7,828 nucleotides of DNA from a bacterium ADurb.Bin374 (GTDB lineage Bacteria > Riflebacteria > Ozemobacteria > Ozemobacterales > Ozemobacteraceae). Made by a program: the position numbers and the translations under genes. Of the stretch, positions 1-7,828 are shown in pieces. Below the pieces are notes generated by a model, which was given only the letters and a program-made list of their open reading frames with translations, made no database searches and was not told the DNA's origin. How positions within the stretch are numbered: position 1 is the first letter of the stretch; each line of letters begins with the position of its first letter. The stretch spans positions 1-7,828 of the forward strand of contig MWAR01000015.1 in the NCBI GenBank assembly GCA_002068715.1, written 5' to 3'.

Positions 1-601
1 CAGGGCGGCGGCGGCGGTGGAGCGCATCAGGGCGGACGCGGCGAAGATGGCCGGCGCGCTTGTCGGCAAGGCGATGGCGGACGGGGCGGACATGGCGGCC
101 GTCATGAGGGCGGCGGGCATGGACGGCTGGCGGAACGGATCGGCCGGCAAGGACAACGCCGGGATCGCCCGGCGCAGGCGGAAGTTCCCCAACGGCAGGG
201 CGGCGGTCGGCGCGGACGGGAGGATGGTCGCCGCGGCGGAGAGGGGCGCGCCGGCGCTCACGTCGGCCTCGACGGTGAACAGGGACAGGCAGTACGGGGA
301 GACGTGGGAGGGCTGGGCGGGCACGGAGCTGCGCAAGCAGGGGCTGAAGATGCGGCATGTGGCCAAGGGGCTCGGCATGTCGCCGGAGGACGCGTGGCGG
401 TGCATCAGCGGCTTCGCGAAGCACTGGCGGCGCGAGGCTCTGGCCGGGAGGGCGTTTCCGGGGCCGAAAGAGGGCTGGGCGGACAGGCTGGAGGCGGCGC
501 GCGCGCTGGCCATGAACATCGGGGTGAAGGGCCGGAGGGTGGTGCTCAACGGATCGGGCGACTGCGGTTTGGGAACGGAAGAGAAAGAAGGCGGAGAATG
601 A
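1..601 (+). CDS. Hypothetical HTH-like phage protein, 5' end outside the window
   Basis: I do not recognise the family. The frame is open to the left edge (an Ala-rich run precedes a possible GTG at 17), so the gene probably starts upstream and only its last 200 or so residues are visible. The N-terminal visible part is rich in Ala, Met and Gly. An Arg-rich stretch (RRRRKF) lies near residue 52 counted from the GTG. The later segment around LRKQGLKMRHVAKGLGMSPE, followed by a tryptophan-containing basic helix, reads like a helix-turn-helix, which suggests DNA binding; this is pattern recognition only. The stop overlaps the next start as ATGA, so the two are probably translationally coupled. 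Base composition is strongly GC-rich like the next three genes. It might be a packaging or regulatory protein, but no function can be assigned. Confidence 0.6.
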   Translation, partial: RAAAAVERIRADAAKMAGALVGKAMADGADMAAVMRAAGMDGWRNGSAGKDNAGIARRRRKFPNGRAAVGADGRMVAAAERGAPALTSASTVNRDRQYGETWEGWAGTELRKQGLKMRHVAKGLGMSPEDAWRCISGFAKHWRREALAGRAFPGPKEGWADRLEAARALAMNIGVKGRRVVLNGSGDCGLGTEEKEGGE

Positions 602-1401
602 TCGCTGAAACAGACATCCAGACAGAAGCGGGTGGCGAAGCAGGCAGCGAAGCGGGTAGCGTAGCGGAGAAGCCTCTTGTGACAGTTGTGACAGATTCTT
701 GTGACACTCTCGAGAAGGATTTGCTCGCTTCCGCGCTCGAAAACAGGGAAAAAGAGGCGAAAAACGAGTCCCTTGTGACGGTTGTGACAGATTCTTGTGA
801 CACTTTCAAGGGCTCCATGAAGGAAGGCGAGTCGCGCTTCGGCATCACCTGCACGGGCGCCCCGGTCGGGCGGAGCCACTGGCTTGCCGACTCATCCGTG
901 TGCGGCGACATGGTCATGGCCCTGCCGTCGTCGGTGCTTATAGCGGGCAGGACGAAGGAGGCCGGAGGCGTGGCGGTGGACGTTGCCATGTTCCTCGACG
1001 CTATCGTGGAGGGCGCGGCCAAGCTGGAAGGCCTTGCCGGGGTGGCGGAGGCCGCGAGCCTGCCGTCCTGGGCGGTCAGCCGGCTGTTCGGGACGTTCCC
1101 CGTTCTCATGTCGGTATACCACGAGGCGATAGATCAGGCGGTGCTCACGGTCGAGGCCGCGGCGATGAAAGCGGCGATCGGCATGCGCGTCACGACCTCC
1201 CGCAAGTTCCGGAAAAGCAGGGTGACCCCGGAAGGCAGGAGCGAGGACGAGGTGGAGGAGTCCTCGGAGAAGTACTTCCCTCCGGACGCCGCGCTGTCCA
1301 AGACGATCCTCACGTCGCGCATGCGCGGGCGGTACAAGGACGAGGGCGGCCTGAAGCAGGCCATCCAGATCAACATTTCGGGCGCGGAGGCGAACTTATG
1401 A
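598..1401 (+). CDS. Probable terminase small subunit (TerS-like), 267 aa
   Basis: The ATG at 598 overlaps the previous stop (ATGA) and follows a purine-rich GGCGGAG. The frame is open further upstream to 304, but that part overlaps the preceding gene and is a shadow. Residues 1-75 are a low-complexity tail with EAGG/EAGS/EAGS units and the peptide VTVVTDSCDT present twice, 32 residues apart. The C-terminal part resembles phage small terminase subunits: an HTH-like region around residues 140-175, an alpha-helical segment with AAAMKAAIGMRV, a charged variable linker, then EKYFPPDAALSKTILTSRM and RYKDEG. This matches the usual TerS layout of a helix ending in A-x-G, then PPD followed by a conserved helix with L and R. 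TerS recognises the packaging site and loads TerL. Its gene is separated from terL by three small genes and a non-coding region. A different HTH protein is possible. Confidence 0.55.
   Translation: MIAETDIQTEAGGEAGSEAGSVAEKPLVTVVTDSCDTLEKDLLASALENREKEAKNESLVTVVTDSCDTFKGSMKEGESRFGITCTGAPVGRSHWLADSSVCGDMVMALPSSVLIAGRTKEAGGVAVDVAMFLDAIVEGAAKLEGLAGVAEAASLPSWAVSRLFGTFPVLMSVYHEAIDQAVLTVEAAAMKAAIGMRVTTSRKFRKSRVTPEGRSEDEVEESSEKYFPPDAALSKTILTSRMRGRYKDEGGLKQAIQINISGAEANL
625..660 (+). repeat. Three tandem 12-bp units encoding EAGG/EAGS/EAGS
   Basis: Three consecutive 12-base units (GAAGCGGGTGGC, GAAGCAGGCAGC, GAAGCGGGTAGC) differ at one or two positions. They are in frame in the TerS-like gene, so each adds four residues. 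A fourth, degraded copy may begin at 661 (GTAGCGGAG). Such in-frame minisatellites usually form flexible linkers and can change copy number by slippage. Confidence 0.75.
676..708 (+). repeat. 33-bp direct repeat, copy 1 (three TTGTGAC motifs)
   Basis: This copy matches the one at 772-804 at 32 of 33 positions; the difference is A684 against G780. Within it TTGTGAC occurs at 677, 686 and 699, spacings of 9 and 13 bp. It is AT-richer than the surrounding gene and encodes VTVVTDSCDT in frame. Repeated short motifs inside a small-terminase gene recall pac/TerS binding sites, which in several headful-packaging phages lie within or next to terS. Replication iterons are the main alternative. Confidence 0.8.
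772..804 (+). repeat. 33-bp direct repeat, copy 2 (three TTGTGAC motifs)
   Basis: Second copy, offset by exactly 96 bp (32 codons) from the first, so the reading frame and the encoded peptide are both kept. TTGTGAC occurs at 773, 782 and 795 with the same 9 and 13 bp spacings. The sequence between the copies is not repeated. Confidence 0.8.
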
Positions 1402-1973
1402 GAAACCTCCTCCTGTTTCTGCGGGAAATCCCGCTTCTGGTCTGGCTGGCGGCGGTGGCCGGGGCGTATTGGCTGTTCGGGCCGGAGATGCGGGCGGCGC
1501 GCCGGCTGAGGCGGCTCCGGAAGAAGGAACGCGCCGGTTGGGTCCGTTGGCGCGTCGATCTGGAAACGGGAAAGTACAGAAGGGTAGGTGAGCCGATGGG
1601 CGGCAAGTGGTCATGGGACGCGAACGCGGCGAGAAGGATGAACGGTTGCGGCAGCCCCGTGGACCGTCAGCCCGCCGTGCGCGACACCGACGGGCGCGTG
1701 CAGCCAGAGTGGAAGCGCCCCGCCATCCTGCCTCCCGACTTCAGGGCTCCGCCGGACGATCCGCAGAACCCGCACACCCATCCGGAGAACTTCCCGCCCC
1801 AGCGGATGTGGGCGGGCTACTTCGACGGCTGGCGAGATCCTGTCCGGTGCGAACGGCTGGACGGTGCCGTCCGGCGGGGCGAGTGCGTCATTCTCGGCTG
1901 CAAGGCCGGCACGTACAGGGTCGGCCAGATCCTTTCGCAGATGTTCGGAGCATTCAGGGAGAACGCGGAATGA
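1398..1973 (+). CDS. Hypothetical membrane-anchored protein, 191 aa
   Basis: The ATG at 1398 overlaps the previous stop (ATGA). The N-terminus, around residues 3-27, is a hydrophobic stretch (LLLFLREIPLLVWLAAVAGAYW) fit for one membrane helix. An Arg/Lys cluster (residues 32-44) follows, which by the positive-inside rule would keep the rest of the chain in the cytoplasm. The remainder is soluble, with proline-rich and tryptophan-bearing segments (for example PPDFRAPPDD and QRMWAGYFDGW) and a C-terminal part that looks folded (GECVILGCKAGTYRVGQIL). I do not recognise a family. Its place between the TerS candidate and terL does not fix a role. The frame is also open upstream of 1398, but that part lies over the TerS-like gene and is a shadow. 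Confidence 0.6.
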   Translation: MRNLLLFLREIPLLVWLAAVAGAYWLFGPEMRAARRLRRLRKKERAGWVRWRVDLETGKYRRVGEPMGGKWSWDANAARRMNGCGSPVDRQPAVRDTDGRVQPEWKRPAILPPDFRAPPDDPQNPHTHPENFPPQRMWAGYFDGWRDPVRCERLDGAVRRGECVILGCKAGTYRVGQILSQMFGAFRENAE

Positions 1974-2101
1974 AACTCGAGACCGTGCTGTTTGTAATGA
2001 TGGGCCTGCCGTTCGCGCTTTGGTTGGCGTGCGATGTTATAAACGGTCAGCGGCTTGTGCGAATGTGGTTCCAGCGCAGGCGCAAGAGGGCTCACAAATG
2101 A
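1970..2101 (+). CDS. Small single-pass membrane protein, 43 aa
   Basis: The ATG at 1970 overlaps the previous stop and follows GGGAGAACGCGGA, an acceptable Shine-Dalgarno region. Residues 5-23 or so (TVLFVMMGLPFALWLACDV) form one predicted transmembrane helix. The C-terminus is strongly basic (RRRKRAHK), so the tail should be cytoplasmic. The coupling on both sides (ATGA at each end) and the conserved hydrophobic/basic plan shared with the preceding protein make it a likely real gene despite its length. Size and topology alone would allow a small holin- or regulator-like membrane peptide, but nothing supports a specific role. Confidence 0.5.
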   Translation: MKLETVLFVMMGLPFALWLACDVINGQRLVRMWFQRRRKRAHK

Positions 2102-2355
2102 CACCCTACAACCCGATACAGGCGGTTCTCGACGACGAGGCATTCGAGGAGACGCTCAGGCGGTATTCCCTCATGACGCCGGAAGAGAAGCGCGCCCGGC
2201 TAATCAAAGTCGATCTGGCGGCGTCCAGAAGCGTCCCGGCGGACATAGAGGAGGGCGAGCGGTTTGATATCCTCGAATACCCCGACGACCTGCCCATAAT
2301 CCCCGCCTGCGGAAATGTCCTGCCGTCGCAAGCCGCCCTTCACACGCGCCGGTAA
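2098..2355 (+). CDS. Hypothetical small acidic protein, 85 aa
   Basis: The ATG at 2098 overlaps the preceding stop (ATGA), making this the last gene of the coupled block. The protein is soluble and acidic in its first two thirds: a likely helix with DDEAFEETLRRY, then a Pro-Glu-Glu-Lys turn, a second helix, and a short DILEYPDDLPIIP segment. It has no signal peptide, membrane helix or metal-binding motif. I do not recognise a family. After its TAA the composition changes sharply to the AT-rich non-coding region, so the upstream gene block ends here. Confidence 0.5.
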   Translation: MTPYNPIQAVLDDEAFEETLRRYSLMTPEEKRARLIKVDLAASRSVPADIEEGERFDILEYPDDLPIIPACGNVLPSQAALHTRR

Positions 2356-2511
2356 ACGGCAGTAATAAGTTCTGGTGTGGAACACCCTCAAGATCCATGA
2401 CGATTGGTCTGTATTCGCGTTCCGGCTTTCGATCAAAAAAGAGGGGTCAAAGATTTTGACACAATCCGCAACAATGAACGGGAACAATATAGGGAATAAA
2501 AACTGCTTAGC

Positions 2512-2609
2512 GTTATCAGGACCGATCTTTCGGAATACCGAAAGAACGAACCGTAAATTTCATTTACGTTTCGCTCTTTGTTCTTGGAGGAACACCGCTC
2601 ACTGATAAC
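2512..2609. other. Four-stem structured element (cruciform or structured RNA candidate)
   Basis: A closing stem GTTATCAG (2512-2519) / CTGATAAC (2602-2609) encloses three consecutive hairpins: TCTTTCGG/CCGAAAGA with an AATA loop (2526-2545, 8 of 8 pairs); a 12-bp stem with one mismatch and a TTC loop (2547-2573, 11 of 12 pairs); and a shorter TGTTC/GAACA stem (2579-2594) that contains GGAGG. Only one base separates the first two hairpins. The pairing would hold on either strand, so it could be single-strand DNA structure, a transcribed RNA or a protein-binding site. It does not match tRNA geometry or an integron attC site. Function is unknown. Confidence 0.5.
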
Positions 2610-2716
2610 AGGCTCTATGAATCAACAATAAAGAACCAATAAAGGCTATCCGACACACTCCCCCAGCCGCCTCTCCAATTAAAGCATATTATAGGACAAA
2701 AATCAAACAACTATTT

Positions 2717-2734
2717 CATTACAAGTTTGTAATG
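2717..2734. promoter_or_regulatory. Operator-like palindrome, site 1 (CATTACA-N4-TGTAATG)
   Basis: CATTACAAGTTTGTAATG is an 18-bp inverted repeat with 8-bp arms around a 2-bp centre. The same CATTACA-N4-TGTAATG arrangement recurs at 2892-2911. Symmetry, size and repetition upstream of a gene are typical of a dimeric repressor or activator site. No regulator gene is visible in the window. Confidence 0.6.
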
Positions 2735-2824
2735 ATTCATAAATGCCTTACATTAGGCCATTTGTGACTATAAATGACTATTTACAGGGCTGTCTTTTCT
2801 GGCTGAACATGGCTTTTTTCAGAC

Positions 2825-2840
2825 GTTAGCCTTGGCTAAC
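2825..2840. promoter_or_regulatory. Palindrome GTTAGCC-TT-GGCTAAC
   Basis: This is a perfect 7-bp inverted repeat with a 2-bp centre. The centre is too small for a stable hairpin loop, so a protein-binding site is more likely than a terminator. It differs from the CATTACA/TGTAATG family and lies between the two copies of that motif. Confidence 0.35.
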
Positions 2841-2891
2841 TTCGCAAGTGGTTGCCCGGCAAGGCGTTACTTCTAAATCGACATCCGTTTT

Positions 2892-2911
2892 ACATTACAA
2901 ATCTGTAATGT
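2892..2911. promoter_or_regulatory. Operator-like palindrome, site 2 (CATTACA-N4-TGTAATG)
   Basis: ACATTACAAATCTGTAATGT has 8-bp arms around a 4-bp centre and the same core half-sites as the site at 2717-2734. The centres of the two sites are 176 bp apart. The right half-site is the first member of the phased TGTAAT series that runs to 2952. Confidence 0.6.
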
Positions 2912-2952
2912 TGGTGTAATACTCCTGTAATGTTGCGGCAATATTCTGTAAT
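2904..2952 (+). repeat. Helically phased TGTAAT half-sites (2904, 2915, 2926, 2947)
   Basis: TGTAAT occurs four times in the same orientation with spacings of 11, 11 and 21 bp, close to one, one and two turns of B-DNA. This places all copies on the same face of the helix, as expected for cooperative binding of one protein. The third copy contains an ATG (2930) in the terL frame, which argues that terL translation starts downstream of it. Confidence 0.6.
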
Positions 2953-2998
2953 TTTAGGCTTGCGCGCGGACAGCGTTTGTGAGATTCTCGGTTCTGTT

Positions 2999-5461
2999 AT
3001 GGACAAGAGCGCACTTCTGACGGATATGCTCAAAAAAGAAACCGAGATGTCTTTCCGGCTGAATGCCAAGCAAGAGATCGCGCTCGGCTTCATGACCGAT
3101 CCGATCGCTCGCCATACGCTTTTGCTCGGGGGCTCGCGCTGTTTGGGCGGCGCATCTCTCGTCGAGACTGCCGACGGAGAGATTCCTCTAAAAACTCTTT
3201 TTGATCGGGCGAGTTCGTTCGCGGTCAATTCGCTTTCGAGAGAGGGTCGAAGAATTGTTGTTGAAGCGGAAGCGCCGTTCGTCAAAGGTTTTGGTCGCTT
3301 AAAGCATATCGTACTCGACAATGGGAAATGGTTCGACGCGCACCCGATTCATCGTGTTATAGGAATACGCGCCGGGAAGTTTTGTTGGCTATATGTCAGC
3401 GAACTTGTTCCGGGTGATCGGCTGCTTTCTTCTTTGGACGACCGGTTATCCGTGCCTTGCCTTCCGGCGTCCAATTTGGAACCTGACCCTTCAGTGTTTC
3501 CCGAAGATGATCCGCGTTGTTTACGAATAGCTCGAGATTCTCAATCCGGTTATCCAAAACATCCTTGTTCTTGTGATGAACAACTTCCTCTGGCAGAAGT
3601 GGTCGGCCAAGATGCAACTCCATCACAAGACGGTGCTCAAAAACGTAAACGCGCCGGTTGTTCTTGTCGAGAGAGCCGTTTGGATGTTGTACCATTCGGT
3701 ATCCCTTCGACATCTTTACACCGCCACGCCACGAGTTGTGACGTTCCCCCCGAAGACCTTTGCCTCGCAGTGCAACGCCCATTTTGTGCAGCCAACGACG
3801 GAAGTGTTCCTCATTCTCCAACTTCTCTCCGAAATGCGGCATGCAGGCTTTTAGGCTCAATCCGCTATTGTATAGCGCGATGGCTTCGTTCGGATGATCG
3901 CCCCAGTAGAATTTCGACCGCTCGCGAATGCCTTTTGACCGACGCCACGCTGCAAAAGCCAATATCGCTCGATCTGTCGGTTCGATATTCAACATCGACA
4001 AAATCCTTCTCACATCCTGTCGGTTTCTGTAGTTCGCGCGAATTAGTTCCTGATGATCACCCCAGTGATATTTGTCTCGGCCATGATCTGATGTTTTCTG
4101 CGCTTTCATATAGCAATTCTTTCGGTTTGACGGTTGTTTTACAATCCTCTTTCAAGGAGGAACCAGAAGAGTACTACGATTTTACAGTGCCGTCAACGGC
4201 AATATATGCCGCCGGGGGAAGTTTTCACCACAACAGCGGCAAAAGTTTCATCTGCGTCCGCGCCATCATTCTGCGCGCGCTCACCTATGAGCGTTCACGT
4301 CATCTGTGTCTGCGCCTGCACCGCGTCACCGCCGAGAAATACCTCTGGAAGCAGACGCTGAAGGACGTGATCGAGAAATGCTTCAAGGGTGTCGCGTTCT
4401 CCTACAACAACTCCCGCATGATTCTGACTTGCCCGAATGGGAGCACGGTCTGGTTCGGCGGACTGGACGAAGGCGACAAGAGTGACGGACTTTTGGGTTC
4501 CGACTGGTCAACCATCCTGTTCGACGAGGCCAACGAGATGTTGCCGGAAGGGATGCAAAAGGCCCGCACACGTCTCTCGCTCAAAGCAAAGAGCGCCGAC
4601 GGCCGCATGTGCGTCAACCGCTCGTTCTCCACGGTCAACCCGACCTACAAGACCCATCACCTCTACCGCACCTATGTCGAGAAGTTCGACATCTTCAACG
4701 GGCTGCCGATGTCGCCGGAGCAGTCGTCGATGTACAATTGGTGCCGGATCAATCCTTGCGACAATCTGGACAACCTCTCGGAAGGCTACCTGCGGGAACT
4801 CCAGTCGCTCTCGCCCGAGAACCGCCGGCGCTTCTTGGAGGGCGAGTGGAGCGAGGAGAGCAAGGACGCGCTGTTCAAGATGAACGACATCAATAACGCG
4901 CGCGTCAAGACTTTCGAGGAGATCGGCGCGATCCAGTTCGACAAGATCGTGGTCGGCGTCGATCCGGCGGTCACCAGCGGAGCCAAGGCCGACTTGACCG
5001 GCATCATCGTGTGCGGCTGGACGCGCCCGAAGGCGTTCGACCGCCGCTCGTCCGGCCAGTACTACGTTCTTGAGGACCGCAGCATCCGCGGCACGCCGGA
5101 CGAGTGGGCGCAGGCCGTCTACGACGCGTACACCCACTGGAAAGCGGATCTGATCGTCGGCGAGGCCAACCAAGGCGGCGATCTCGTGGAGAAGAACATC
5201 CGCTCGGTCAGCCGCATCGCGCCGTACAAGAAGGTCTGGGCCACGCGCGGCAAGGCGATCCGCGCCCAGCCTGTTGCCGCCATCTGCGCGACGGGCGATC
5301 TCCACATAGCGGTTTGTCTTCCCGAACTGGAAGGGGAGATGGTGGGATGGAACCCCGACTCGGGCGAGCCTTCGCCAAACAGGCTGGACGCCCTTGTCTG
5401 GGGAATAACCGAGCTGATGGGCTCAAAAAACAAGAGGGCGCGCATAATAGGAGCGGTATGA
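2999..5461 (+). CDS. terL: Terminase large subunit (TerL) precursor with intein
   Basis: TerL is the ATPase/nuclease that translocates and cuts phage DNA at the portal. After removal of the intein (3140-4234) the Walker A loop reads GGSRSGKS. Walker B is ILFDEANE (Asp codon 4523), followed by an NPT motif and HHLYRTYVEKF as in other TerL ATPase domains. The RNase H-like nuclease domain has its acidic residues in GVDPAVTSGAKADLTG (Asp codon 4961), VGEANQGGD (Glu codon 5162) and PNRLDALVWG (Asp codon 5387). From the ATG at 2999 the precursor has 820 residues and the spliced protein 455, a normal TerL size. Other in-frame starts are 2930 (inside the operator-like repeats), 3026 and 3047; none has a strong Shine-Dalgarno, so the exact start is uncertain. 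The stop overlaps the next gene as ATGA. Confidence 0.95.
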   Translation: MDKSALLTDMLKKETEMSFRLNAKQEIALGFMTDPIARHTLLLGGSRCLGGASLVETADGEIPLKTLFDRASSFAVNSLSREGRRIVVEAEAPFVKGFGRLKHIVLDNGKWFDAHPIHRVIGIRAGKFCWLYVSELVPGDRLLSSLDDRLSVPCLPASNLEPDPSVFPEDDPRCLRIARDSQSGYPKHPCSCDEQLPLAEVVGQDATPSQDGAQKRKRAGCSCRESRLDVVPFGIPSTSLHRHATSCDVPPEDLCLAVQRPFCAANDGSVPHSPTSLRNAACRLLGSIRYCIARWLRSDDRPSRISTARECLLTDATLQKPISLDLSVRYSTSTKSFSHPVGFCSSRELVPDDHPSDICLGHDLMFSALSYSNSFGLTVVLQSSFKEEPEEYYDFTVPSTAIYAAGGSFHHNSGKSFICVRAIILRALTYERSRHLCLRLHRVTAEKYLWKQTLKDVIEKCFKGVAFSYNNSRMILTCPNGSTVWFGGLDEGDKSDGLLGSDWSTILFDEANEMLPEGMQKARTRLSLKAKSADGRMCVNRSFSTVNPTYKTHHLYRTYVEKFDIFNGLPMSPEQSSMYNWCRINPCDNLDNLSEGYLRELQSLSPENRRRFLEGEWSEESKDALFKMNDINNARVKTFEEIGAIQFDKIVVGVDPAVTSGAKADLTGIIVCGWTRPKAFDRRSSGQYYVLEDRSIRGTPDEWAQAVYDAYTHWKADLIVGEANQGGDLVEKNIRSVSRIAPYKKVWATRGKAIRAQPVAAICATGDLHIAVCLPELEGEMVGWNPDSGEPSPNRLDALVWGITELMGSKNKRARIIGAV
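3140..4234 (+). mobile_element. TerL intein (365 aa) in the Walker A loop, split splicing domain around an antisense HNH gene
   Basis: The intein begins with Cys1 (codon 3140) and ends with His-Asn (codons 4229 and 4232) before Ser+1 (codon 4235), the residues needed for standard splicing. Block A is CLGGASLVETADGEIPL. Block B is the region FDAHPIHRV with the conserved His at residue 71; the usual Thr of TxxH is His68. The next block is SELVPGDRLL (residues 87-96). Block F is YYDFTVPSTAIYAAGG (Asp347) and block G is SFHHN. The N-terminal ~100 and C-terminal ~40 residues together make a mini-intein core of about 140 residues. The ~220 residues between are Ser-, Arg-, Cys- and Pro-rich with no LAGLIDADG or HNH motif on this strand; they are the complement of the minus-strand HNH gene. 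Local GC is much lower than the flanking extein (25 of 60 bases at 3541-3600). Confidence 0.95.
3396..4109 (-). CDS. HNH homing endonuclease, antisense within the terL intein, 237 aa
   Basis: This is a complete minus-strand gene (ATG at 4109-4107, TGA at 3398-3396). Residues 11-62 and 64-115 form a duplicated module, each starting K-[YF]-x-WGDH and ending with an [RW]-x-x-[KS]-[KM]-G-like basic helix; these are probable DNA-recognition units. The HNH nuclease follows: NSWRGG and KGYRMVQHPN, then VFEHRLVMELHLGRPL, EEVVHHKNKDVLDNRIENLELF and DH at 200-201. His178/His179, Asn187 and His201 fit the HNH metal site of phage homing endonucleases (HNH_3-like). The basic tail GRPKKK ends the chain. 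Upstream GAAAGAAT is only a weak ribosome site. The gene fills the endonuclease slot of the intein and its end overlaps the intein SELVPGDRL block. The inferred role is cutting intein-less terL alleles to start homing. It overlaps terL completely, so its mRNA is antisense to terL. Confidence 0.9.
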   Translation of the reverse strand: MKAQKTSDHGRDKYHWGDHQELIRANYRNRQDVRRILSMLNIEPTDRAILAFAAWRRSKGIRERSKFYWGDHPNEAIALYNSGLSLKACMPHFGEKLENEEHFRRWLHKMGVALRGKGLRGERHNSWRGGVKMSKGYRMVQHPNGSLDKNNRRVYVFEHRLVMELHLGRPLLPEEVVHHKNKDVLDNRIENLELFVNNADHLRETLKGQVPNWTPEGKARITGRPKKKAADHPEQVR

Positions 5462-5691
5462 AGAGAAAACAGCGGGCGGCATACGACAGCAGGGCCAAAA
5501 TCTTTGAGGCGACATGCGAGAAATGCGCCCGGATAAAGCGGTGCGCGTTCCGCACGACCGAAGGCGGCGGGCCTGAAGCGGTGTGCCTCCAACTTGTGCA
5601 GGGCGGAACCTATTCATGCGAGAGTTGCACCCGCCGGAACCAGCAAGGGGACTGCCATTTCTCCTGCGTCTTCTTCCGCGCGGCGATTTGA
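5458..5691 (+). CDS. Small cysteine-rich protein, 77 aa, possible zinc binding
   Basis: The ATG at 5458 overlaps the terL stop (ATGA), so it is coupled to terL. The chain has eight cysteines: CEKC at residues 20-23, C at 29, C at 43, CESC near 54-57, and two more near 66 and 70. The pairing of CxxC motifs suggests two structural zinc sites (or a reduced cysteine cluster). The N-terminus is basic (KRKQR). No signal peptide is seen, so disulfide bonding outside the cell is unlikely. I do not recognise the family. Its position between terL and portal is a common place for small packaging accessory or nuclease genes, but no HNH or GIY-YIG residues are present. Confidence 0.65.
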   Translation: MKRKQRAAYDSRAKIFEATCEKCARIKRCAFRTTEGGGPEAVCLQLVQGGTYSCESCTRRNQQGDCHFSCVFFRAAI

Positions 5692-5698
5692 CGTTGTT

Positions 5699-5716
5699 GC
5701 CGTTTTCGCCGTTTTG
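5699..5716 (+). repeat. Tandem 9-bp pair GCCGTTTT(C/G)
   Basis: GCCGTTTTC at 5699 is followed directly by GCCGTTTTG at 5708 in the 55-bp gap between the Cys-rich gene and the portal gene. The gap is the only clear break in the right-hand gene block and might carry control signals, but no promoter or terminator is convincing. Confidence 0.3.
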
Positions 5717-5746
5717 TCGTAATATCGTGACGATTTTGGGTGAATT

Positions 5747-7324
5747 ATGAACAAAAAATCCACAACTGCCTCTGTTTCTGTGCCGGATTCGACAAAAGCG
5801 GCCAAATCGCCCGAGGTCAGGTGCGAGGCTATCGCCGATCTTCGGCGCGGGGCTTATTCCACGATGCTTGAGGCCGCGATGGAGCGCGTCTGGCGGAACT
5901 GCAAGTATCCCACGACCGTTTCGTTCGATCAGTACTACAAGATGTACGCCCGGAACAATATCGCGGCGCGCGTGATAGAGACCTTTCCGGACTACTCTTG
6001 GGCGGCTGTCCCGTTTCCCAGCGACTCGCGCGGGGCGACCTCGCGCTTCTCGAAGGCGGCGGCGGCGCTCCTCACGCGGCAGTACAAGTTGCAGGACGGC
6101 GTGAGTCAGCCGCTTTTGGCGTCCATGAAGCAGTTGGACGTGCTCGGCGGCATCGGCGGAGAGTCGCTTCTGGTGTTCGGCTTTGCGGACGGAAAGAAAC
6201 TGAACATGCCTGTCGAGCAGAAGCGCGACATGGAAATCTCGTGGATCAAGATCCTGCATAACGGTCAATTCGAGGTCGAGAAGCGGGATGAGGACGAGTC
6301 TTCGCCGACTTACGGGGACGTTCTCTTGTACCGCACGAAGGATTTCACGTCCACGATCGACCTGAATTTCTCAAGCCAGATTGCTTCAGGCAAGAGCATC
6401 CATGCCTCGCGTTGCGTCCATTTCAAGGAATCTTCCGGGCTTTCGTACGGAACCTCGCGCATCCAGAAGTGTTACAACCAGCTTCTCGACATCACGAAGC
6501 TCTCGGGGGCTTCGGCGGAAGTCTATTGGCTCGGGGCTTTTTCCGGTCTGTCGATCGAGACGGACCCGACGGCCACGCTGGACGATGACGCCTACGAACG
6601 GATGATGGAGAAGACCTCCATGTATTTCGACGGCCTCGCTCGCGCGTTGGTGTTCGAGGGAGCGACCTCGAAACTGCTTTATCCGGCCATCGTGTCACCG
6701 AAAGACCATTTCGACCTCCAGATCACCATGATCTCCATCGCGACGGGCATTCCCCGCCGGTTCCTGACCGGCTCCGAGGCCGCGAAACTGGCCTCTCAGC
6801 AGGACACGCTGAACTGGATGGAGCGCGTCACGAATCGGCGCGAGATGTTCATCGGACCGAAAGTTGTCGCGCCCGTGATCCAGCGTTGCATCGACGCAGG
6901 CGTGATTCCGGGGCCGAGCGACGGCACTTTCACGGTGGCTTGGCCGCGCGTGCAGTCCATCGCGCTGAACGAGCGCGCCGACGCCGCACGCAATATGACG
7001 GCCGCATGGAACGCTTACGGATCGTCCGGGATGTCGGAAGTGATGCCGTTTGGAGTGTATCTTCTCTACGCTTGCGGCTTCAGCGAGACCGAGGCGGACG
7101 ACATCGAATCGAAAATCAATTCGGCAAACTGGAAAAAGGTGAAGAAGGCCAGCGAGAGCGGCACGACTTCGCCGGGCGCATCCTCTTCCGCCGTCAAGAA
7201 ATTGGAATCCCGGATCGAGGATCTTGAGACCGGCATGGAAGAGGCGGCGAATCAGGCAACTCCGGCGGCGCCTATGCCACGGAGCGAGGACACAGAAAAG
7301 AAACCCAAAAGAGGTGAGAAATGA
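5747..7324 (+). CDS. Phage portal protein, DUF1073/HI1409-like, 525 aa
   Basis: The portal forms the dodecameric ring at the head vertex through which TerL pumps DNA. Features seen: an N-terminal region with FDQYYKMYARNNIAARVIETFPDYSWAA, which resembles the conserved start of DUF1073 portals (a Y-x-x-N-x-x-A-x-x-I/V helix before a D-x-x-x-x-W); a GGIGGESLLVFGFADG core strand; the IKILHNGQFEVEKRDED loop; SRCVHFKESSGLSYGTSRIQKCYNQL, typical of portal clip/wing regions; and IPRRFLTGSEAAKLASQQDTLNWMERV, a hallmark segment near the crown. Residues around 478-495 (VKKLESRIEDLETGMEEA) form a coiled coil, followed by a charged disordered tail. The length is normal. The ATG at 5747 follows GGGTGA, a usable ribosome site. 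Its stop overlaps the protease start by ATGA. Confidence 0.88.
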   Translation: MNKKSTTASVSVPDSTKAAKSPEVRCEAIADLRRGAYSTMLEAAMERVWRNCKYPTTVSFDQYYKMYARNNIAARVIETFPDYSWAAVPFPSDSRGATSRFSKAAAALLTRQYKLQDGVSQPLLASMKQLDVLGGIGGESLLVFGFADGKKLNMPVEQKRDMEISWIKILHNGQFEVEKRDEDESSPTYGDVLLYRTKDFTSTIDLNFSSQIASGKSIHASRCVHFKESSGLSYGTSRIQKCYNQLLDITKLSGASAEVYWLGAFSGLSIETDPTATLDDDAYERMMEKTSMYFDGLARALVFEGATSKLLYPAIVSPKDHFDLQITMISIATGIPRRFLTGSEAAKLASQQDTLNWMERVTNRREMFIGPKVVAPVIQRCIDAGVIPGPSDGTFTVAWPRVQSIALNERADAARNMTAAWNAYGSSGMSEVMPFGVYLLYACGFSETEADDIESKINSANWKKVKKASESGTTSPGASSSAVKKLESRIEDLETGMEEAANQATPAAPMPRSEDTEKKPKRGEK

Positions 7325-7828
7325 GCGTGAAGAAATCTGACGGAAAAGCGCGTGTGATCATTGTTGGTTCGATAATCTCCGGCCGCAGCGGCAGCGGATG
7401 GTATGGGCGCTATACGGGAACCGAAACCGTGATCAAGGCGATCGGCTCGTCCGGGCCTGTGGACGTGTACATCAATTCTCCGGGCGGAAGCGTTTTCGCC
7501 GGATTTGAGATCCTGAACGCGCTGAATGCGGCCGTCATTGCCGGGCGCGAGGTCACGATGTACGTCTCCGCCATGGCCGCGTCGATGGCCTCCTACATCT
7601 CCAGCGGCGTTGTCGGGGCTAAGGTCTACATGGCAGATAACGCGAAACTCATGTTTCACGCGCCTTGGACCTACACCGAGGGCAGCAAGGACCAGCTCCG
7701 CGATACAGCCGACCTGCTCGGAAAGATGGAGGACGACATTGTCCGCGCCATCGAATCTCGCGGTGCCAAAGCGGAAAAGGAATGGTTCGCGGCCGGCCGC
7801 GCGAAATGGTTCGCCGCAAAAGAGGCGG
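7321..7828 (+). CDS. ClpP-like (S14) head-maturation protease, 3' end outside the window
   Basis: The ATG at 7321 overlaps the portal stop and follows GAGGTGAG, a good ribosome site. The first 169 residues are visible. The ClpP fold is clear: an N-terminal strand with VIIVGSI, INSPGGSVFAG (residues 51-61, the oxyanion-hole glycines), MYVSAMAASMASYI with the nucleophile Ser88, and NAKLMFHAPW with the catalytic His113. The third catalytic residue, normally Asp farther on, lies in or beyond the visible WFAAGRAKWFAA region and cannot be judged. In tailed phages such proteins downstream of portal cleave scaffold and capsid precursors during head maturation; in some phages they are fused to a scaffold domain, which the missing C-terminus could show. 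The expected next gene is the major capsid protein. Confidence 0.9.
   Translation, partial: MSVKKSDGKARVIIVGSIISGRSGSGWYGRYTGTETVIKAIGSSGPVDVYINSPGGSVFAGFEILNALNAAVIAGREVTMYVSAMAASMASYISSGVVGAKVYMADNAKLMFHAPWTYTEGSKDQLRDTADLLGKMEDDIVRAIESRGAKAEKEWFAAGRAKWFAAKEA

Follow-up and report, generated by a model that had tools for sequence, protein, structure and literature searches.

A probable mobile intein in a phage terminase gene, with its homing endonuclease gene on the opposite strand

Inteins are usually described as a single polypeptide that both splices and homes. Here we analysed a 7,828-nucleotide stretch of DNA from the bacterium ADurb.Bin374 (Riflebacteria; contig MWAR01000015.1, positions 1 to 7,828), hereafter the window, in which a large terminase gene, terL, contains an intein and the intein contains, on the minus strand, a gene for an HNH endonuclease. 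This element is very probably a mobile intein whose homing gene runs antisense to its splicing frame. Besides the window, at least 140 virus-type sequences have the same layout in the same phase, and the antisense-HNH intein is probably a widespread way to build a mobile intein, undescribed in the literature we searched. The sequences directly show the layout with its constant phase, selection on the HNH frame of relatives, an exact insertion that distinguishes two phages, and unlike inteins in terminases that are nearly identical. The features of the element are as follows (pLDDT, predicted local distance difference test, here and below averaged per ten residues).

2930 to 5461, plus strand: terL (large subunit of the terminase) with its intein, a single open frame of 843 codons
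2930 to 3139, plus strand: N-extein, ending LLLGGSR, the first half of the Walker A loop
3140 to 4234, plus strand: intein, Cys1 to Asn365, 365 amino acids, terL residues 71 to 435
3140 to 3439, plus strand: N-terminal splicing part (Hint), residues 1 to 100, AlphaFold2 pLDDT 92–98
3440 to 4099, plus strand: sense linker, residues 101 to 320, predicted disordered, opposite the HNH gene, pLDDT mostly 35–57
4130 to 4234, plus strand: C-terminal splicing part (Hint), residues 331 to 365, ending FHHN, pLDDT 96–98
4235 to 5461, plus strand: C-extein, starting SGKS, the second half of Walker A
3396 to 4109, minus strand: HNH endonuclease gene, 237 amino acids, ATG to TGA, antisense within the intein
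3525 to 3635, minus strand: HNH_3 domain, residues 159 to 195, with the stretches EHRLVME, EVVHHKN and LDNRIENL (Pfam match, conserved columns)
3765 to 4073, minus strand: helical N-terminal portion of the HNH protein, approximately residues 13 to 115, possibly DNA-binding

The host gene matches Terminase_3 (E 6.5e-9), Terminase_6C (E 8.5e-8) and phrog_979, terminase large subunit (E 1.8e-42), and the intein interrupts its Walker A loop at GGSR/SGKS (slashes mark splice junctions). An earlier note, made from the letters of the window, had proposed the splicing residues Cys1, block B His71, His364-Asn365 and Ser+1, and its coordinates proved exact: Cys1 is TGT at 3140–3142, Asn365 is AAC at 4232–4234 and Ser+1 is AGC at 4235. 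Among the 53 inteins of the class that were aligned (53 of 69 representatives), Cys1, Lys49, His71 and Asn365 do not vary; we know of no named splicing residue that corresponds to Lys49. A profile of the 53 inteins matches solved DnaB inteins (E 1.4e-25), and the best Foldseek matches of the window intein model are mini-inteins (E 5e-6). By profile kinship, predicted fold and invariant residues, the sense element is an intein, with predicted splicing activity. A search of its sense sequence against 5.8 billion proteins gave 7,690 candidates, with 0 at E<=1e-3.

The earlier note's further claim, that the intein has no endonuclease in its own frame, was borne out. The sense open reading frame (ORF) matches terminase families only (Pfam, maximum E 0.01), and no Pfam family scores above its cutoff in the linker. 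Instead, the minus-strand ORF, which faces intein residues 86 to about 324, matches HNH_3 with an E value of 2.2e-10 (40.5 bits, cutoff 24.8) and 13 PHROG families, of which 11 carry the name HNH endonuclease. It is a complete 237-residue HNH protein with its motifs, as had been suggested: 671 database proteins match it at E<=1e-3, and the closest of these, P0001–P0014, keep the HNH motif stretches at 63–99% identity over 79–98% of the query (P labels denote database proteins found as relatives, L labels loci). The predicted structure is helical at residues 11 to 110 (pLDDT about 80–91) but poor overall (mean pLDDT 61, HNH part under 50; built from 15 sequences), and none of its fold matches is significant.

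To see how widespread the layout is, we assembled a first locus set around HNH relatives from IMG/VR and GTDB contigs, one of the retrievals keeping 80 of 383 confirmed relatives. The set holds 126 ORFs that match the HNH profile. Of these, 36 are not nested and 90 face an open stretch 200 or more codons long; 88 of the 90 share a single phase, in which the first codon position of the HNH frame pairs with the first of the sense frame. L106 and L020, which differ in phase and lack an intein, were excluded from the nested set. A second survey was blind to the HNH gene: the sole query against IMG/VR was DNA encoding the C-terminal splice junction HHN/SGKT, which gave at least 80 loci. Among the 80 listed, the best upstream HNH match is antisense in 50, always in the same phase. 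The other 30, sorted by eye, comprise 14 mini-inteins, 4 loci cut by the locus edge, 1 chance match and 11 with an in-frame insert that we take, from its motif, to be LAGLIDADG-like (degenerate in L133). Some of these 80 loci are near-duplicates, so the counts are not frequencies of independent lineages. In all, we obtained at least 141 nested pairs in 62 clusters (70% HNH identity), one phase throughout, including the window and two cultured phages, Pectobacterium phage Ymer and Pseudoalteromonas phage PHS3. The proposal of an intein with a separate opposite-strand endonuclease gene is thus supported well beyond the window. Seven more phages match the Ymer gene over its full length at 91–100% DNA identity, each with an opposite-strand HNH match, which brings the named phages with the layout to nine.

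Both splicing blocks are present in 132 of the 141 sense proteins, and seven of the other nine proteins start within the HNH stretch or shortly ahead of it. Most, but not all, of the host genes encode terminases: among 54 representative C-exteins (5 of the 59 listed representatives had no usable C-extein and were left out), 35 match Terminase_6N and 31 the terminase family phrog_2, while 2 match SNF2 helicase families instead. In L010 (4487–6823, minus strand) the nested antisense HNH lies in an intein of a helicase-like protein, again at the Walker A loop (LD/C...HHN/TGLGKS). We consider it likely that the class is commonest at HHN/SGKT junctions in uncultivated viruses, that its antisense homing gene has a fixed phase and that in a subset the HNH C-terminus and the Hint N-domain are truly dual-coding.

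Codon positions indicate which strand is under selection. In the shared phase, HNH position 3 faces sense position 2, and HNH position 2 faces sense position 3. Across 44 disjoint pairs (88 of the 141 members), differences in the overlap number 1,731, 1,462 and 3,340 at HNH positions 1, 2 and 3, and those in sense codons outside it 5,487, 4,119 and 11,651 at sense positions 1, 2 and 3. HNH position 3 is more variable than position 2 in all 44 pairs, and identity is higher for the HNH protein than for the sense linker in 43 of them. Resolved by region (37 pairs), the exteins and both splicing parts are most variable at sense position 3 and the linker at sense position 2. By these counts, the splicing blocks and exteins of the relatives evolve as sense code and the linker as HNH code. 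This is the opposite of the outcome that the earlier note had set against its own proposal, a conserved sense domain facing a broken minus-strand frame.

The sense frame stays open throughout. Synonymous shuffles of the HNH genes predict 1.9–12.6 sense stops per gene, against 0 observed in 62 representatives, and for no representative did more than 9.8% of shuffles yield a stop-free sense frame. For the window, 1,000 such shuffles gave 5.15 stops on average and an open frame 0 times. The same constraint can be read from the HNH proteins, because in this phase a Phe directly before Lys, Asn, Met, Ile or Thr would impose a stop codon on the sense frame. These dipeptides number 0 of 76 in P0001–P0014 and 2 of 311 in P0015–P0120, against 37 of 166 in the 36 HNH ORFs that are not nested, and 348 of 1,620 in proteins P0121–P0240. 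Given this scarcity, the majority of the 120 listed HNH relatives are probably nested as well. The sole two occurrences among the 106 listed relatives P0015–P0120 are in P0020 and P0064, which are perhaps free-standing.

In 25 of the 132 members with both splicing blocks (24 without L173), the HNH ORF extends far enough to face the N-terminal splicing domain as well. Within this stretch, variation is nearly equal at the three sense positions (0.224, 0.235 and 0.285 differences per codon), compared with 0.29, 0.249 and 0.535 in the C-terminal splicing part. This suggests, from thin data of five pairs, that both strands are constrained in this overlap. We also asked whether the C-termini of P0001–P0014 could encode the sense stretch ELVPGD: 7 of 9 is reached in 6 of 14, against 6 of 106 other HNH matches; with shuffle fractions of 0 to 1.0, this comparison is suggestive only and we do not use it as support. 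A FastTree tree built on the core of up to 91 HNH sequences (125 columns, read irrespective of support values) partly intermixes nested and free-standing HNHs, and puts the window together with the free-standing L051.

Genetic signs of homing, namely exact insertion, exchange between hosts and co-conversion, were seen in relatives, outside the window itself. PHS3 and AL, both phages of Pseudoalteromonas marina, have terminase proteins 98.3% identical. Their terL genes (1,164 of 1,227 bases identical) differ by one exact 300-codon (900-nucleotide) insertion, Cys1 to Asn300, placed in PHS3 at GGAG/SGKS. A second difference, of 970 nucleotides, lies downstream, where PHS3 has a methylase gene. 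Up to 83 codons past the insertion site, the two phages differ at 3 of 119 third codon positions, compared with 53 of 289 farther on (Fisher p 5e-6, with the boundary picked after seeing the data), a pattern that co-conversion would leave.

Inteins also appear to have been exchanged at one site. Over 350 residues, L132 shares 96% C-extein identity with L008 and 99% with L041, yet L132 has a 132-residue mini-intein, L008 a 293-residue HNH intein and L041 a 314-residue HNH intein, and the N splicing parts of the latter two are 50% (L008) and 33% (L041) identical to that of L132. Near-identical terminases thus contain different inteins at the same position. Conversely, HNHs 60–66% identical occur in proteins with 22–28% C-extein identity (the 15 most discordant of 66 listed pairs). 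For the window's own site, intein-less alleles exist: L124 and P0121–P0126 continue uninterrupted into SGKT from a GG-R context like that of the window (GGSRSGKT in L124 and P0121), and the window C-extein is 85% identical to L124 and 81% to P0121, the nearest intein-less terminases.

Part of the class has a candidate translation signal for the minus-strand gene. Taking the best of up to four candidate HNH starts, 27 of 60 representatives have a Shine-Dalgarno match of at least five bases, whereas the same rule applied to internal codons gives 5 of 60. In the window, the alternative start Met39 is preceded by AAGGA, and P0001 starts at that residue.

From these observations we infer splicing, minus-strand expression and cutting of the empty site. 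The sense linker, open and predicted to be disordered, would need only a stop-free frame for the terminase precursor to be made and spliced. Minus-strand expression would yield the HNH protein separately; this protein would cleave terL genes that lack the intein, and repair would then copy the whole element into the empty site. Placing the two functions on opposite strands would decouple splicing from homing.

Several points weigh against this reading. PF14890 has no match in the window intein, whereas 9 of 10 scanned inteins match it at E<=0.1, three of them above its cutoff. The splicing-block profiles behind the 132 of 141 were built from members of the same set, and the N part of L173 is doubtful (score 2.7). 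The 44 pairs of the codon-position test form only five groups (single linkage, 55%) and so are not independent, and they sample other branches of the class than P0001–P0014, the nearest HNH relatives of the window. Openness of the sense frame is partly circular for the first-set loci, which were picked for a long opposite ORF, though not for the survey loci. The 83-codon boundary in PHS3 and AL is post hoc, and constraint on the N-terminal portion of TerL is another possible cause of the lower divergence around the site. Finally, the first ATG of the window HNH gene has a weak Shine-Dalgarno match only, and a promoter scan of the window was at chance level (2 found, 1.6 expected).

Among other explanations, the one that survives best is that the antisense HNH protein is a phage packaging or fitness factor and not the homing enzyme of the intein. 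HNH proteins reportedly act as packaging components (Kala et al. 2014), and the prevalence of terminases among the hosts (35 of 54 C-exteins matching Terminase_6N) fits such a role. The 2 of 54 C-exteins from SNF2 helicase families do not, nor do the HNH-less mini-inteins in terminases 96–99% identical to HNH-bearing ones, and intein-less relatives of the L124 type have no HNH match in their record (possibly a fragment). We regard this explanation as improbable.

Less probable still, and disfavoured for the class as a whole, is that the HNH frame is a dead relic and that the sense linker keeps its frame open through a role of its own, such as regulating splicing. Such decay would agree with the weak Shine-Dalgarno match at the first HNH ATG of the window, the lack of an outstanding promoter and the HNH remnants in two short inteins described below. 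It does not agree with a linker that in relatives varies most at sense position 2 and is less conserved than the HNH protein in 43 of 44 pairs, with the HNH motifs kept in P0001–P0014 or with the predicted disorder of the window linker. Removal of the insert as RNA, by a group I intron with an antisense homing gene, is highly improbable: some group I introns do carry such genes, but Rfam gives 0 matches in the window at gathering thresholds, and the reading frame is unbroken, with invariant splicing residues and a Hint fold. Antisense ORFs opposite real genes are common, but a chance mirror of sense codon usage would explain neither the codon-position pattern nor hundreds of relatives with HNH_3 homology, and this homology together with the shuffles (0 of 1,000 open) rules it out.

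A mobile intein with an antisense homing gene resembles several known systems in part. In the literature searched in full text we found no description of an antisense endonuclease in an intein, although a 2025 preprint by Gosselin, Arsenault and Gogarten on non-canonical actinophage inteins may overlap. Split inteins with a free-standing endonuclease gene, the host gene and intein lying in two genes, were reportedly described by Dassa et al. in 2009. They share the separation of endonuclease and splicing domain, but the host gene in the window is one unbroken frame. Some group I introns carry antisense homing genes, and there too the homing gene is independent of splicing; these introns splice RNA, whereas the window element would splice protein and would therefore depend on an open sense frame. 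Mini-inteins that occupy the same site (L132 and others) share the Walker A position and related Hint parts, lack the HNH stretch and probably derive by HNH loss.

Canonical large inteins likewise have an endonuclease, LAGLIDADG or HNH, between the N and C Hint splicing parts, but within the intein polypeptide, whereas that of the window is a separate opposite-strand gene; with its nuclease outside its own frame, the window intein falls outside the canonical endonuclease-bearing type. The dCTP deaminase intein of cyanophage CL131 has an in-frame endonuclease of the same HNH_3 family (PMC6293099). ShiLan-type HNH insertions in phage methylases are out of frame on the same strand, and the authors found no intein or intron (PMC11855218); Applejack has an out-of-frame same-strand HNH insertion without a splicing domain (PMC12613952). 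The ShiLan type resembles the window in having the HNH gene in another frame of the insert, with the host frame left open, but it lies on the same strand and, as reported, outside inteins, whereas the window HNH is antisense inside an intein with Hint parts. The searched text of the paper on the Ymer genus mentions neither HNH, homing nor intein (PMC11445585).

Second inteins were seen at another site of the same host proteins in L058 (3681–4346, minus strand) and L026 (4456–5133, minus strand). Each has a same-strand, out-of-frame nuclease ORF (HNH_3, E 1.9e-15, in L058; DUF559, E 1.7e-8, in L026). They are nearer to the ShiLan type than the window element is, yet are located in inteins, and inteins may thus have come to hide a nuclease in a different frame on more than one occasion.

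If the class is common, gene callers and intein surveys would overlook or misannotate such elements, and both cultured phages are examples. The GenBank record of PHS3 (L251, KX912252.1) annotates a shortened terL, although the actual terL is one frame, and places an HNH gene between the small and the shortened large terminase genes; an upstream gene is called terminase ATPase subunit. That of Ymer (L126, OP748252.2) annotates the whole terL with its intein as a hypothetical protein. The layout also provides natural antisense overlapping genes in which the selected frame is readable from codon positions, and makes antisense gene expression inside an essential late gene directly testable. The class further supplies many HNH nucleases with guessable target sites.

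Two short inteins, in L148 (997–1440, plus strand) and L202 (5417–6046, plus strand), retain antisense HNH remnants of 63 and 85 codons, and are perhaps stages of HNH loss toward mini-inteins; they are counted in the 62 clusters and omitted from the Shine-Dalgarno comparison. A sense-frame contrast to the nested class is found on a Dehalococcoidales contig, where a 1,171-codon frame (L110, 75–3587, plus strand) has two in-frame HNH-like segments.

By Pfam and PHROG profile matches of its ORFs, the window contains a phage packaging module, in which the following genes flank terL.

598 to 1401: putative small terminase, on a weak basis (phrog_309, E 0.003)
5747 to 7324: portal (Pfam/PHROG match)
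from 7321: head-maturation protease (Pfam/PHROG match)

The GC content is 0.61 in the C-extein, 0.52 in the N-extein and 0.45–0.51 in the intein. Upstream of terL, an AT-rich stretch (2520–2640 and 2700–2955), by eye devoid of an obvious gene, contains hairpin-like repeats and several TGTAATG-type copies, a possible regulatory or packaging signal.

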